From Symbiobacterium thermophilum (GTDB taxonomy: Bacteria; Bacillota; Sulfobacillia; DYFQ01), in the NCBI GenBank assembly GCA_020725105.1, contig DYFQ01000024.1, positions 1 to 43,731 of the forward strand: DNA of 43,731 bases, in the 5' to 3' direction. The position numbers and the translations under genes were made by a program. The notes beneath the pieces were generated by a model. It searched no databases, was not told where the DNA came from, and saw only the letters and a list, made by a program, of their open reading frames with translations. Each line of letters begins with the position of its first letter. The first letter of the stretch is position 1. Positions 2,543 through 15,687 of the stretch are shown piece by piece.

Positions 2543-3541
2543 CTAGAAGCTGGCCGACAGGAGGTCCAGCACCGTCTGGATGGGGGACGCCACCGTCACC
2601 TGGGAGGACCCGGCAAAGAGCAGCCCGACGGCCCGGCGGTCCCGGTCCAGGACGAGGGACCCCGAATCGCCGCCTTCCGACATGGCGGTGGTGATCACCT
2701 GGCCGGTGAACTGGCCCATCCGGCCCGCGTCGTAGTGGACCCGCACCGTGGCGTGGAGCGTGATCACCCGGCCCCGGGTCAGACCCGTCGTCCGGCCGCT
2801 CTTCTGTACCTCCAGCCCGAGGGTGGCCTCGCCCGCGCCCTCAACCGGACCGATCCCGAGGATCTCCGGGTCCAGGGCAGCCGGCGACAGCGGCCGGGCC
2901 AGGGCGGCGTCCACCAGGTTGTCGCGGCCGTTCCCCGGAAAGCCCCGGTCCGCCCGGTACAGGGCCAGCGGCACGTAGCGGTATAGCGTCGCCAGCCGGT
3001 CCCGGTGACTACCCCCGTCGTAGGGACCGGGCTGGTAGATGGGGTCGCCCCGGCGGGCCCGGCGGTCCCGGCCACTGGTGGCGTTGGCCAGCACGTGGTT
3101 GTTGGAAAGGATCATCGGCCAGCCCCGGCTGCCGTAGAGCACCCGGCAGCCCAGCGTGCCGGTGGTGACGCGAAAGTGGCCCACCGAAACCCCGCCCGGC
3201 GCCGGCCGCCAGCTGGCCCGGGGATCGGGATCGTTCCGGTCGCCCGCCTGGGGCCGAGCCCGGCGGCGCTCGCCCGGCGCCAGGGTGTAACCCAGGGCGA
3301 CGAGCCGCCCCACCTCGATCACGTCGGTCTCGGTGTCGTCCACCACCCGGGGCACCACGTCGCTTGAGGTCAGGGCCTCGGGCGGCAGCTTCTGCTCCAC
3401 CAGGACCATCAGGCTGGGCCGGTCGGAGACCCGGCCCCCGACGGTCTTGAAACCAACCCCGACCCCCACCACGTTGGGCAGCGTCAACAGCCGGTCGCGG
3501 GAGGCCGCCAGGGCCCGGACCTCCCGGGACGCGTCACCCAT
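2543..3541 (-). CDS. Trypsin-like serine protease (NAL1-like)
   Basis: A 332-residue protein with a chymotrypsin-like catalytic layout. The His lies in SNNHVLA (about residue 150), a candidate Asp in the NLVDAALARP segment, and the nucleophile Ser in GGDSGSLVLD (about 295). The N-terminal part (LPNVVGVGVGFK, then the SLMVLVEQK strand) is the small beta domain found in front of this protease type in Bacillota. There is no signal peptide, so it acts in the cytoplasm or leaves by another route. The start ATG has GGAAGGAGAGG upstream. The neighbouring SLH gene ends upstream in the same direction about 90 bases away. The substrate is unknown. Confidence 0.8.
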   Translation of the reverse strand: MGDASREVRALAASRDRLLTLPNVVGVGVGFKTVGGRVSDRPSLMVLVEQKLPPEALTSSDVVPRVVDDTETDVIEVGRLVALGYTLAPGERRRARPQAGDRNDPDPRASWRPAPGGVSVGHFRVTTGTLGCRVLYGSRGWPMILSNNHVLANATSGRDRRARRGDPIYQPGPYDGGSHRDRLATLYRYVPLALYRADRGFPGNGRDNLVDAALARPLSPAALDPEILGIGPVEGAGEATLGLEVQKSGRTTGLTRGRVITLHATVRVHYDAGRMGQFTGQVITTAMSEGGDSGSLVLDRDRRAVGLLFAGSSQVTVASPIQTVLDLLSASF

Positions 3542-5476: not shown

Positions 5477-5574
5477 GACACCGGCTCCTTCCTTGGCAGA
5501 GGCGCTCCCGACTGAGGACGCTGGTTTTCCTGGGAGAGGTTCCCCGGGCCGGCAGGGGAAACCTCCTGCAGGCG

Positions 5575-5606
5575 AACGCCCGGCCGCGGGGGGACGGCCG
5601 GGCGTT
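5575..5606 (-). terminator. Terminator-like hairpin after the YDPPPP peptide gene
   Basis: A perfect 12-bp stem, AACGCCCGGCCG with CGGCCGGGCGTT, around an 8-base loop. It lies 50 bases beyond the stop of the small peptide gene and upstream of the SLH gene, both on the minus strand. No T-run follows, as is common in GC-rich genomes. Confidence 0.6.
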
Positions 5607-5655
5607 CAGGTGCGGTGCGTGCTGCTTGCCAGTCTTGAAACTGAAGGTTCGGACG

Positions 5656-5874
5656 TTACCGCTTCAGGCCTGGCGCCTCGACGAAGTCGGGCACCGCCAT
5701 GAGGATCGGCCTCGGCGGCGGCGGGTCGTAGACCCCGGTCGACCGCGGTGGCGGCGGGTCGTAAACGCCTGTCGCCCTCGGCGGCGGGGGATCGTACACC
5801 CCGGCGAGGACCCAGGTGGGCAGGGCCAGCGTCACCAGGGCGACCACCAGCAAGAAGGCGATCCACCGACGCAT
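5656..5874 (-). CDS. Exported small peptide precursor with three VYDPPPPR repeats
   Basis: A 72-residue protein: MRRW start, a hydrophobic signal segment ending in WVLA (predicted signal peptidase cut before GVYDP), then three near-identical units GVYDPPPPR separated by AT or ST, and a tail ending in APGLKR. The start ATG overlaps the TGA of the upstream TPR gene by one base (TGATG), and AAGGAGG lies nine bases before it. The arrangement (TPR gene, overlapping small exported peptide) matches rap-phr pairs of Bacillus. Arg ends each repeat, so trypsin-like cleavage would release three identical peptides. A peptide signal is inference; a cell-wall-interacting Pro-rich peptide is an alternative. 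I know of no named family for it. Confidence 0.75.
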   Translation of the reverse strand: MRRWIAFLLVVALVTLALPTWVLAGVYDPPPPRATGVYDPPPPRSTGVYDPPPPRPILMAVPDFVEAPGLKR

Positions 5875-6632
5875 CACGGCGCCCCTCCTTTCCTGATGCA
5901 CTCCGCCTCGCGCAACTCCGGTTCCATGCTGAGTTCCCTGAAGATGCCCTCCGCCCGGGCGGCCAGGTGGCGGGCCAGCCGGCGCCAGCCCTCCCCCTGG
6001 GCGACTTTGGCCAGCAGCAGGTGGACCGAGCCGACCTCGGCCATGTCCGACCGGTCCAGGGCCAGGTCCCAGGCCTCGCAACCCAGTCGCACCGCCCGCG
6101 ACGTGTCTCCCTCCAGCCGGGCGACCTCTCCCAGTTCCGTCAGGATCCGGTGCCTGTACGCTCCTGACGCGCCCGCGTAGGCGTGCTCCAGCAGGCGCCG
6201 GGCTTCCTCCAGCCGCCCCAGCCGGCGCATGGCGACGGCCAGGTTCTGGAGGGCGCCCACCTCCTCCGGAACCATGCCCAGTTCCCGGTAGGCGGCGAGC
6301 GCCCGCTTGCCCCACTCGATGGCCTCCCGGAGCCGGTCGGTGCGCACGGCGTGGGCGGCCATGCTCTGGTAAACCCAGGCCTCCCGGGGCCCGTCTCCCG
6401 CCGCGCGGGCAAGGTCGGCCGCCTGCCGGTACAGCGGCACCGCCCGGTCCCAGTGGCCGGTCCGGGCCAGGTTGACCGCTTTGAGGGCCAGAACTTCCCA
6501 CTCAAGCGCGGGCTGGCCGCTCACGTTGCCCGAGGCCAGGCGGGCCAGCGCCCGCAGGGCCCGCGTGGGGTGGCCCAGACGGGTAGCCTCGCGCGCCGCT
6601 TCGACAATCGTGGTGACGTCCCCCTTGGCCAT
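5874..6632 (-). CDS. TPR repeat protein (Rap-like arrangement, no HTH)
   Basis: A 252-residue, all-helical, soluble protein of tetratricopeptide repeats. Repeats are seen as A....G....A...Y..A patterns, for example LARTGHWDRAVPLYRQAADLA and TDRLREAIEWGKRALAAYRE, covering most of the length. No DNA-binding domain or enzyme motif is present. The ATG at 6632 is chosen because GGAGGG lies seven bases upstream; longer in-frame readings upstream have no coding look. TPR proteins of this size bind peptides or partner proteins. Because its stop overlaps the start of an exported repeat peptide, a Rap-type role (a receptor that the re-imported peptide regulates) is plausible but unproven. It could also be a shortened XRE-TPR regulator that has lost its HTH. 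Confidence 0.8.
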   Translation of the reverse strand: MAKGDVTTIVEAAREATRLGHPTRALRALARLASGNVSGQPALEWEVLALKAVNLARTGHWDRAVPLYRQAADLARAAGDGPREAWVYQSMAAHAVRTDRLREAIEWGKRALAAYRELGMVPEEVGALQNLAVAMRRLGRLEEARRLLEHAYAGASGAYRHRILTELGEVARLEGDTSRAVRLGCEAWDLALDRSDMAEVGSVHLLLAKVAQGEGWRRLARHLAARAEGIFRELSMEPELREAECIRKGGAP

Positions 6633-6664
6633 GACCGGCCCTCCGTCACCCGCCCAAGACCAGA

Positions 6665-6747
6665 GCCCCGCTCCGGCCGAAGCGGGGCCCAGAATAGCTT
6701 CCCCGAACGCCACCGCTTCGGCAGCCCTGCCGACTCCACAAGGAGTC
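6665..6747 (-). other. Structured leader of the TPR/peptide operon
   Basis: Two dyads lie upstream of the TPR gene. GACTCC-ACAA-GGAGTC (6732-6747) is a perfect 6-bp dyad. GCCCCGCT with AGCGGGGC (6665-6688) forms an 8-bp hairpin about 33 bases before the start codon; on the minus strand it is followed by TCTGGTCTTGG. The second could act as an attenuator or terminator. No clear promoter hexamers are seen. Confidence 0.35.
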
Positions 6748-13675: not shown

Positions 13676-13849
13676 CGGTCGATCCTCCTTCCAGCCGGCT
13701 CCGCGCGGCTGAATTCTTGCCTTCTGCCCTACCATTCGAACCGGAGCGGAAAGTTTCGGGGGGTTCCGCGGGCGGGGTATCCTGAAGCGGGCCGGGGGCG
13801 CTGGTCAAGGGCGGCGAGAGGTTCGCTCATGCGGGCCCGAAAATGAAGA

Positions 13850-13877
13850 GACCCCAGCCCGATACCTGGCTGGGGTC
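13850..13877 (-). terminator. Rho-independent terminator of the DDDPPP peptide gene
   Basis: A perfect 10-bp stem, GACCCCAGCC with GGCTGGGGTC, with an 8-base loop. On the minus strand it is followed by TCTTCATTTT, a T-rich tail. It lies about 90 bases beyond the stop of the small peptide gene and closes a single-gene unit. Confidence 0.7.
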
Positions 13878-13968
13878 AGCGGGGCAGAGCTCCACGCAGG
13901 CTGCCCACGGTGATCCCACCCTCCATGGCGGTATATTGTTCCTGATAACTCAGGGTATCGTCTGGGGT

Positions 13969-14118
13969 TTACCAGCCATCCGCGGGCGGGGGGTCGTCAT
14001 CAACCACCAGGAAGCTTGGTCCCTCCGTCCGGGTAGCAAGACCTCCTGCCACCGGAGCGAAGGCGAAGACGGCCAGCAGCACCAGACTGATCCCCCACAG
14101 CAGCACGCGCCGCGCCAT
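13969..14118 (-). CDS. Exported small peptide precursor ending in DDDPPPADGW
   Basis: A 49-residue protein: MARR start, a hydrophobic signal segment (residues 5-26), a likely signal-peptidase cut after GLA (about 28), and a short mature part ending in VVDDDPPPADGW. The ATG has a perfect AGGAGGTGA ribosome site seven bases upstream. A sigma-H-like promoter lies 30-60 bases upstream and a T-tailed terminator lies downstream, so it is a complete single-gene unit. It is divergent from an XRE-TPR regulator gene. Sigma-H promoters also drive many phr pheromone genes in Bacillus. The acidic D-P-P-P core recurs in the YDPPPP repeats of the other small exported protein in this window. A pheromone role is inference. 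Confidence 0.78.
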   Translation of the reverse strand: MARRVLLWGISLVLLAVFAFAPVAGGLATRTEGPSFLVVDDDPPPADGW

Positions 14119-14149
14119 CCGTTCTCACCTCCTCTCTGCACGGTGGACA

Positions 14150-14176
14150 GAATTCAAGGGAACGCGGCTAAATCCT
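14150..14176 (-). promoter_or_regulatory. Sigma-H-like promoter of the DDDPPP peptide gene
   Basis: On the minus strand AGGATTT (14176..14170), 11 bases, then CTTGAATTC (14158..14150). This matches the sigma-H (Spo0H) consensus RnAGGAwww, N11-12, RnnGAATww at every core base, with mismatches only at the flanking R positions and the final w. The predicted start is about 25-30 bases before the peptide ATG. Confidence 0.6.
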
Positions 14177-14181
14177 TGAAG

Positions 14182-14203
14182 ACTGTTTACGATAGCGGAC
14201 AAC
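14182..14203 (+). promoter_or_regulatory. Two-block element, copy 1 (peptide/regulator intergenic region)
   Basis: Reads ACTGTTTACG, three to four bases, GCGGACA. The same two blocks recur at 15725-15747 in front of the HD-GYP gene with one mismatch. It lies immediately upstream of the sigma-H-like promoter of the peptide gene and about 135 bases upstream of the regulator gene. An inverted copy of the TGTTTAC core (GTAAACA, 14302-14308) lies nearer the regulator start. It may be an operator for the XRE-TPR regulator. Confidence 0.5.
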
Positions 14204-14337
14204 GGAACAGCTGGAGAGCGTCACCGGGTCCCACGCGGAGGACGCTAGAAAGAACTGAAGGACCGCGACATCTGTACGGCGAACCGGCGTTCCGGTATGC
14301 TGTAAACAACGCGTTCGACATATGGGAGGGCTACGCC

Positions 14338-15687
14338 GTGGAAACGCTGGCGGAAAAGCTCAAGAACCTGATGGGCTGGAACCTTTCCGACCGTTCCCGC
14401 CGGCTGTCGCTGCGGGAAGTCGCCAGGGGCACGGGGCTGTCCCACTCGTACCTTTGGATGCTGGTCTCCGGAGCCCGCGACAACCCCACGGCCGACGTGC
14501 TGGAACGGCTGTCCCACTACTTCGGTACTGACATCAGCTACTTCCACGAGACTCGGGGGCCGGGTTCCGAAGGTGCGCAGTTCCGCGGGAGGCTGGTGGA
14601 GGTCCGCGCGCTGATTCACCGGGCAGAGACCGACGGACCCGAGGAACTGGGCCCCGAGCTGGAGGAAGCCTGGGAACTGGTCTGCCGAGCCGGCCCCGCT
14701 GAACTGGCCGTTCGCGTCGCCCTGGCCTACTGCCGCTGCCTTCGTAGCCAGAAGGCATATCCGAAAGGCGAAGCGGTGTTGCGGCAGCTCAGCGGACGGT
14801 GGCTAGGGAAGCTGCCGCTTGACTACGAGATCCGGGTGCAGTTTCAGTTTGCCGTCCTGGCTTACGAGCAGGCCCGGTACTTTGAGGCCGTAGAGCGGAT
14901 GGAAACCTGCCTGGAACGGATCGAGAGCGCGGGACACCAGACCCCCCTTCTTGAAGACGTCTGGTACAATCTGGGGATCTACTACCGGCGGGTAGGCCGG
15001 CCGGAGGATTCGGTCCGGGCGTACCTGCGGGCTCGCGAGCTTCACCCCGATGACAGTGGGCAGCGACTCGCCTTCATCCACATGGGGCTCGGACAGGCCT
15101 ACCGCGACTGCAGGCGCTACGAAGAATCACTGGAGCATTTGCTGGGGGCGCTGGAGATCCTGACCGAGCTGGGCGACGCCAAGTGGGCCGGGGCGGTCTG
15201 CAACAACCTGGGCGATACCCTGTGTGAACTCGGTCGCTGGCGTGAAGCCAGGGCCCGGTACGAAGCGGGGCTGCTGGCCCACAGAATGGTCCGCTACGAG
15301 AGGGGCGCCGGGCTGAACCTCGCCGGCATCGCCCGCTGCCAGCTGGAGCTCGGCGACCCGGCCAAGGCCCTGTCCACCGTCAACCAGGCTTTGTCCCTGC
15401 TGGCGCAACTGGGCGAAAAGCCCGACTGGGCCGACGCGCTGCTGGTCCGGGCCCGTGTGTACACGGCCCTCGAGGAGTGGGACAAGGCCCGCGCTGACCT
15501 GGAGAAGGCCAAGACCTGCTTCCACGAGGGCAGGATGGTGCCCCACCTGCTGCGGGCCATCGCCGTGGAGGCGGAACTTGACAGCCGGATGGGCGCCCTC
15601 GAGGACGGGGCCGAACGGCTGCGGCGATCGGCTGAAGTCGTCCGCGGCCTGGCCGACTGGGTACGGACCGTCGGCCGGGCGGCCTGA
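14338..15687 (+). CDS. XRE-family HTH + TPR regulator (RRNPP-like)
   Basis: A 449-residue regulator. Residues 5-65 form a helix-turn-helix of the XRE type (LSLREVARGTGLSHSYLWML, then NPTADVLERLSHYF). The rest is a run of TPR-like helical pairs, clearest from about residue 190 (YFEAVERMETCLERIE, RYEESLEHLLGALEILTELG, RWREARARYEAGLLAH and EWDKARADLEKAKTCFHEG). An XRE HTH fused to C-terminal TPRs is the layout of PlcR, NprR and related RRNPP peptide receptors. The GTG start has GGGAGGG seven bases upstream; the open frame runs further up but without a ribosome site. It is divergent from the small exported peptide gene, and upstream of an HD-GYP gene. Ligand identity is inferred only. Confidence 0.85.
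   Translation: METLAEKLKNLMGWNLSDRSRRLSLREVARGTGLSHSYLWMLVSGARDNPTADVLERLSHYFGTDISYFHETRGPGSEGAQFRGRLVEVRALIHRAETDGPEELGPELEEAWELVCRAGPAELAVRVALAYCRCLRSQKAYPKGEAVLRQLSGRWLGKLPLDYEIRVQFQFAVLAYEQARYFEAVERMETCLERIESAGHQTPLLEDVWYNLGIYYRRVGRPEDSVRAYLRARELHPDDSGQRLAFIHMGLGQAYRDCRRYEESLEHLLGALEILTELGDAKWAGAVCNNLGDTLCELGRWREARARYEAGLLAHRMVRYERGAGLNLAGIARCQLELGDPAKALSTVNQALSLLAQLGEKPDWADALLVRARVYTALEEWDKARADLEKAKTCFHEGRMVPHLLRAIAVEAELDSRMGALEDGAERLRRSAEVVRGLADWVRTVGRAA

Follow-up and report, generated by a model that had tools for sequence, protein, structure and literature searches.

The window, by which is meant the whole analysed stretch of 43,731 nucleotides, carries on its minus strand a c-di-GMP riboswitch, a gene for a TPR-only protein and an overlapping small gene for an exported repeat peptide, all of which run in one direction between two hairpins. 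We consider it fairly probable that the two genes form a bicistronic receptor/pheromone unit working like Rap-Phr, that is, in an RRNPP-like manner, and the unit is probably switched off by c-di-GMP. The new elements are the lineage, a TPR-only receptor with proline-rich signals and the link to c-di-GMP; the multi-copy precursor is already known. The riboswitch directly upstream was missed by an earlier note on this DNA, and is a more unusual feature than the repeats. To our knowledge, studies of RRNPPA signalling have been confined almost entirely to Bacilli and a few Clostridia.

The repeat precursor

The precursor gene (5656-5874, minus strand) encodes 72 aa. Its start shares one base with the stop of the TPR gene (TGATG at 5874; spacing −1 nt), and the earlier reading of a peptide gene that begins inside this stop is thereby confirmed. 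A strong ribosome-binding site, AGGAAAGGAGGGG, was recognised from the sequence within the TPR gene (5882-5894, minus strand), and a strong hairpin predicted by folding 3′ of the peptide gene (5574-5607, minus strand) is the likely end of the unit. Signal peptides were judged using our own crude hydropathy script together with the sequence. A Sec-type signal peptide is likely at residues 1-24 (5803-5874, minus strand), given the basic n-region, the hydrophobic core and a site after residue 24 at which cleavage is plausible; the mature part then comprises 48 aa and has no anchor.

The precursor reads MRRWIAFLLVVALVTLALPTWVLA-GVYDPPPPRAT-GVYDPPPPRST-GVYDPPPPRPILMAVPDFVEAPGLKR. Three identical nonamers, GVYDPPPPR, are followed by AT, ST and PI with a period of 11 aa (5776-5802, 5743-5769 and 5710-5736, all on the minus strand), and the third leads into the C-terminal tail PILMAVPDFVEAPGLKR, which is not a repeat. 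The signal peptide, the three units and the linkers AT and ST are as previously described. The signal had also been called proline-rich and acidic; the former is correct and the latter is not, since D is balanced by R and the unit is neutral in charge. The three 27-nt repeat cores differ by at least seven nucleotide changes, and all seven are synonymous, against an expected share of approximately 28-30% for random changes (P about 1.3e-4 to 2.5e-4); at the two linker codons between the repeats, the amino acids are changed. Because all core changes are synonymous, the peptide is under selection; it is very likely that the gene is translated and that every copy of the nonamer is important.

Sequence searches, genome contigs included, revealed no homologue of VYDPPPPR, and P0001 and P0002 had no relatives in the genome contigs searched. 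Two viral contigs (L277 and L278) that appeared to match GVYDPPPP were rejected, as the matching DPPP/GGVYDPPPP tracts are of low complexity, have stop codons close by and are not TPR-linked genes. Pro-Pro endopeptidase is one conceivable processor of the repeat precursor. A repeat that ends in Arg would be suited to cleavage of the trypsin type; a gene for a Trypsin-2/NAL1-like protease is located near the TPR-peptide unit (2543-3541, minus strand), and its product has no signal peptide.

The TPR protein

The TPR-only gene (5874-6632, minus strand) encodes 252 aa, and its product is a candidate cytoplasmic peptide receptor on the basis of Pfam and AlphaFold2. The Pfam search matched TPR families only (TPR_12, 2.3e-14), with no HTH or enzyme domain in the protein. 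The AlphaFold2 model, for which six homologues served as input, is a confident TPR superhelix of 13 helices (pLDDT 92.7, pTM 0.86), as would be expected of five to nine TPR motifs forming a peptide-binding superhelix. RapI was the best bacterial PDB match of the model (Z 24.6, rmsd 3.0, 244 residues), accompanied by RapJ with its pheromone (Z 23.4), NprR with NprX (Z 23.3) and the Raps of phi3T, phi105 and pLS20 (Z 22.6-22.9). The top PDB matches were LGN and TONSOKU, and eukaryotic peptide-binding TPRs such as LGN equalled or exceeded the Rap scores. Similarly, the TPR profile of A1 reached a Rap (6t3h, 2.2e-6) and NprR (5dbk, 7.1e-6), and designed and eukaryotic TPRs scored higher. TPR folds are generic, and a common fold is in itself no proof of a common function. 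The model aligns only from residue 101 of RapI onward, and the segment ahead of the TPR domain is missing; according to both Pfam and the comparison with RapI, neither an HTH nor a three-helix bundle is present as an N-terminal effector domain. Without such a domain, the TPR protein has no visible output.

The riboswitch and its leader

A c-di-GMP-I-GGC riboswitch aptamer (RF03167; 6716-6792, minus strand) ends 83 nt before the TPR start codon on the same strand, and its score of 59.7 bits (E 9.7e-12) lies above the curated Rfam gathering score of 59. This riboswitch was recovered again by the whole-genome search. The fold of the leader contains a G+C-rich hairpin (6663-6690, minus strand; −21.6 kcal/mol), a candidate expression platform that is terminator-like with no U run; the hairpin was left unscored by the consensus terminator scan, and nothing was found by the sigma-70/terminator scan. 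Two candidate antiterminator arms, GCCGAAGCGG (6713-6722, minus strand), which covers the final 7 nt of the aptamer, and CCGCTTCGGC (6676-6685, minus strand), which is the 5′ arm of the hairpin, form a perfect alternative helix of 10 bp between the aptamer 3′ end and the hairpin. The two folds are nearly isoenergetic (MFE −96.3 versus forced antiterminator −95.6 kcal/mol), and the 3′ arm of the aptamer is common to both. On the customary logic of such leaders, c-di-GMP would turn the unit off.

The window genome (G000) has seven matches to this riboswitch in total; other sites among them lie ahead of a flagellar operon of flgB type, a pilus gene resembling TadE and the gene of a further small exported protein. 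Two tandem c-di-GMP-I riboswitches (L141 and L144; contig C56, 58180-58471) stand ahead of an flgB-type flagellar operon. On contig C33 (L142, approximately 1690-1938), an 82-aa exported protein, SSYGDPWRPTFSS..., is encoded behind a c-di-GMP riboswitch, and its gene is convergent with a 283-aa TPR-only gene with a slight overlap. A riboswitch directly before a TPR gene was found in 2 of the 133 riboswitch regions scanned; a general preference of riboswitches for TPR genes was therefore rejected, and the point of interest is the repeated triad described below.

Such neighbours give some weight to the alternative that the peptide serves as a secreted effector or as an envelope element, for instance a proline-rich surface or matrix repeat under c-di-GMP control, with the TPR protein as cytoplasmic chaperone, secretion partner or regulator. 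Surface proteins commonly carry proline-rich repeats, and TPR proteins are often chaperones. In this class, most c-di-GMP-I riboswitches lie ahead of flagellar operons and of genes for Flp/Tad pili, and the 82-aa protein is another exported product behind one of them. We nevertheless regard this explanation as unlikely, since the mature part of the window precursor has no anchor, those of its relatives are too short for a structural element, and the overlap and co-occurrence follow the pattern of receptor and pheromone.

Recurrence of the layout in the class

The search covered 154 genomes of the window's class, and the window genome is the sole representative of its order among the genomes analysed. 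TPR-only genes with an overlapping gene for a small, exported and proline-rich peptide were detected in at least three other families (G004; G037-G039; G126, G127 and G129). In G004 (f5), a 277-aa TPR gene overlaps the peptide gene at ATGA, the mature part is GPRHEPWASLKNNETIQFVVNPAGNPVPVFFPLQSFPAR, and a c-di-GMP-I-GGC riboswitch of 70.7 bits, stronger than that of the window, lies 76 nt upstream of the TPR gene; G004 thus repeats the complete set of three elements found in the window. One TPR family in G126, G127 and G129 (f38) has six members, each with an overlapping exported peptide, and the peptides have endings such as CNGGSGGPPPPPTGSKC, CNGGNGNGGPPPSGSRC and GPGGGSGPNPTATPTPTK; five are intact, and the peptide at locus 1 of G127 is shortened. 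The peptides of G037, G038 and G039 (f17), namely, DPTPEPGPYPPRCNVVLPGE, NPIDFPPNPPPAANVILGK and DPLDEPLPPPSADVITIGK, each overlap their TPR gene. The mature parts in these relatives comprise 17-20 aa, and proline accounts for 18-35% of the mature part in all intact cases. Small ORFs of 28 and 32 aa that overlap TPR genes in G035 (f15) are weak cases with little or no mature part. No riboswitch was present near the f17 and f38 pairs, and it accompanies two TPR-peptide lineages only. Conservation between lineages is limited to the layout and the richness in proline. The earlier suggestion to search small ORFs beside TPR genes in related genomes gave a positive result for these two properties and a negative one for the sequence VYDPPPPR, and the suggested rap/phr-like layout gains support from the overlaps in relatives and from the match to the Rap/NprR peptide-binding domain. 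No small exported ORF adjoined the TPR genes with transmembrane tails or the HTH-TPR genes of G009, G011, G034, G141, G150, G151 and contig C64 of the window genome. Symbiobacterium-like peptides in G129 (L105 and L109) and G127 (L108) contain exactly two cysteines, located at the ends of the 17-aa mature part (CNGG...GSKC), and this arrangement points to a disulphide ring or to a signal with paired Cys.

It is improbable that the TPR gene and the small exported protein are chance neighbours with unrelated roles. Chance is favoured by two counts: a small exported-looking ORF follows about 5% of gene 3′ ends (14 of 285 in background stretches of G129 and G000, by a crude test), and the adjacency of riboswitch and TPR gene is confined to the two regions mentioned above. 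Against this background, three or four independent overlapping lineages are not expected by chance, where members of one lineage are not independent of each other; moreover, the overlapping layout recurs across several separate families of the class, the repeats bear the mark of protein-level selection and the order of riboswitch, TPR gene and peptide gene returns in G004. A secreted antimicrobial or competition peptide, with the TPR protein as regulator or source of immunity, is more improbable still: antimicrobials include proline-rich peptides and multi-copy precursors, and the short peptides of the Symbiobacterium-like relatives are flanked by two cysteines (as in CNGGSGGPPPPPTGSKC), but the repeat unit is neutral instead of cationic, and no dedicated exporter, modification enzyme or immunity gene was found beside the TPR-peptide unit.

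TPR proteins with visible outputs

The genomes G037, G038 and G057 encode proteins in which TPR repeats are joined to an HD domain of the HD-GYP type (HD_5, E about 1e-36 to 1e-39), the c-di-GMP phosphodiesterase domain, and each fusion gene is followed within 60 nt by an exported peptide gene. In G132, a c-di-GMP-I-GGC riboswitch stands ahead of a TPR-HD-GYP gene (L311, 2361-4139), which predicts feedback of c-di-GMP on its own phosphodiesterase; an exported peptide gene was looked for beside this gene and not found. An HTH_3-TPR regulator of G140, which also matches RNPP_C, has an exported peptide 4 nt downstream that ends in GPNDGPIDPPDYPPGSGDGDSG. The three output types, that is, none visible, HTH and HD-GYP, look like one receptor module equipped with different effectors.

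The window itself contains a further HTH_3-TPR regulator of RRNPP-like make-up (13843-15687, plus strand), the true start of which probably lies further downstream than the one listed; a search at the 3′ end of this gene gave no small exported ORF. Another arrangement is conserved among three members of a single family (L306, 578-1016, in G039; L307 in G038; L308 in G037): a c-di-GMP-I-GGC riboswitch is followed by a peptide of 26-27 aa that looks exported (MKALLRALVTLALLALAGGAWFNWPW and nearly identical forms, with a strong RBS) and then by a membrane protein of 939-982 aa, which in L306 comprises HD_5, GAF, PAS, HisKA and HATPase domains. In G147 (L309, 754-1144), a riboswitch precedes a 32-aa exported-looking peptide ending in LGLPWGPPAPP and a similar membrane protein of 1044 aa; this peptide may be another proline-rich small peptide controlled by c-di-GMP.

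Discussion

The window pair resembles Rap-Phr of Bacillus in its TPR protein without a DNA-binding domain, in the small exported precursor that overlaps the 3′ end in the same direction and in the superposition of the TPR model on the TPR domain of RapI and RapJ. It differs in the lack of the three-helix bundle (about 250 aa versus about 370-380 aa for Rap), the internal proline-rich repeats of 8-9 aa, the c-di-GMP riboswitch in front and a lineage outside Bacilli. Known Phr signals are short and usually placed at the C terminus. Multi-copy precursors occur in Rap-Phr as well, and the earlier suggestion that several copies would denote another type of peptide system does not hold: two identical signal copies are present in Phr105, up to eight copies have been reported (PMC11343458), and up to six identical copies are described in AimR, NprR, PlcR and Rap systems (PMC9765709). 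With NprR-NprX, PlcR-PapR and other HTH-TPR regulators, the pair shares a TPR peptide-binding domain and a neighbouring exported propeptide; the window gene lacks the HTH, whereas the same class has an HTH_3-TPR regulator with an exported peptide in G140.

In the sections of the RRNPP_detector survey drawn on here, the RRNPP signature comprises a receptor of 250-500 aa, a propeptide of 10-100 aa and a spacing of −60 to 400 (PMC10075063). The window pair fits this size, spacing and Sec-export signature (−1 nt, 72 aa, with export judged by script). Symbiobacterium, Thermaerobacter and Sulfobacillus are not named in the main text of the survey, and no mention of riboswitch control was found in those sections (PMC10075063). 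We make no claim that the pair belongs to RRNPPA, as the N-terminal effector domain of family members is absent. No description of such an arrangement, in which a c-di-GMP riboswitch or HD-GYP domain is joined with an RRNPP, TPR or pheromone system, was found in the open-licence papers searched, where RstA is the nearest case. This RRNPP protein of C. difficile represses flgB, and the flgB operon also has a c-di-GMP riboswitch (PMC6414698). Riboswitch and RRNPP-type protein thus meet in one regulatory pathway there too, with the riboswitch on flagella in C. difficile and on TPR-peptide genes in the window.

As a receptor/pheromone unit, the locus might function as follows. At low c-di-GMP, the leader would let transcription through, and the TPR protein and the precursor would be produced together via translational coupling. 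The precursor would be exported via Sec, and proteases would free VYDPPPPR-type peptides, three per precursor, which an oligopeptide permease could re-import. The 17 SBP_bac_5 matches in the window genome are binding proteins of the peptide-uptake type and show only that uptake systems exist. Inside the cell, the peptide would bind the TPR groove and alter the binding of a partner of the TPR protein. High c-di-GMP would shut the unit off, and the signal would be tied to the motile/sessile switch.

The receptor/pheromone reading is favoured by the synonymous-only divergence of the repeats, the recurrence of the overlap relative to the 5% background, the proline-rich mature parts and the triad in G004. 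The Rap/NprR TPR match, SBP_bac_5 proteins, peptide neighbours of TPR-HD-GYP and HTH_3-TPR genes and the fit to RRNPP size and spacing point in the same direction. The missing output domain, the generic TPR fold, a peptide without homologue and the non-repeat tail count against it, as do the restriction of the riboswitch to two lineages, the hairpin without a U run and the crude signal-peptide script. A wider peptide-pheromone network centred on c-di-GMP is a more tentative proposition, which we hold to be possible but somewhat doubtful; here, TPR receptors of exported proline-rich peptides would be either gated by riboswitches (window and G004) or fused to HD-GYP (G037, G038 and G057, and G132, where a riboswitch stands in front), and signals and c-di-GMP would control each other.

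The recurring layout of TPR gene and exported peptide in a distant and little-studied class suggests a greater age for this type of peptide signalling than has been assumed, or more than one origin. If true, the riboswitch on the unit and the TPR-HD-GYP proteins with adjoining peptides would constitute a direct bridge between peptide signalling and c-di-GMP, and if the network reading also holds, cell-cell signals and a second messenger would control each other directly.
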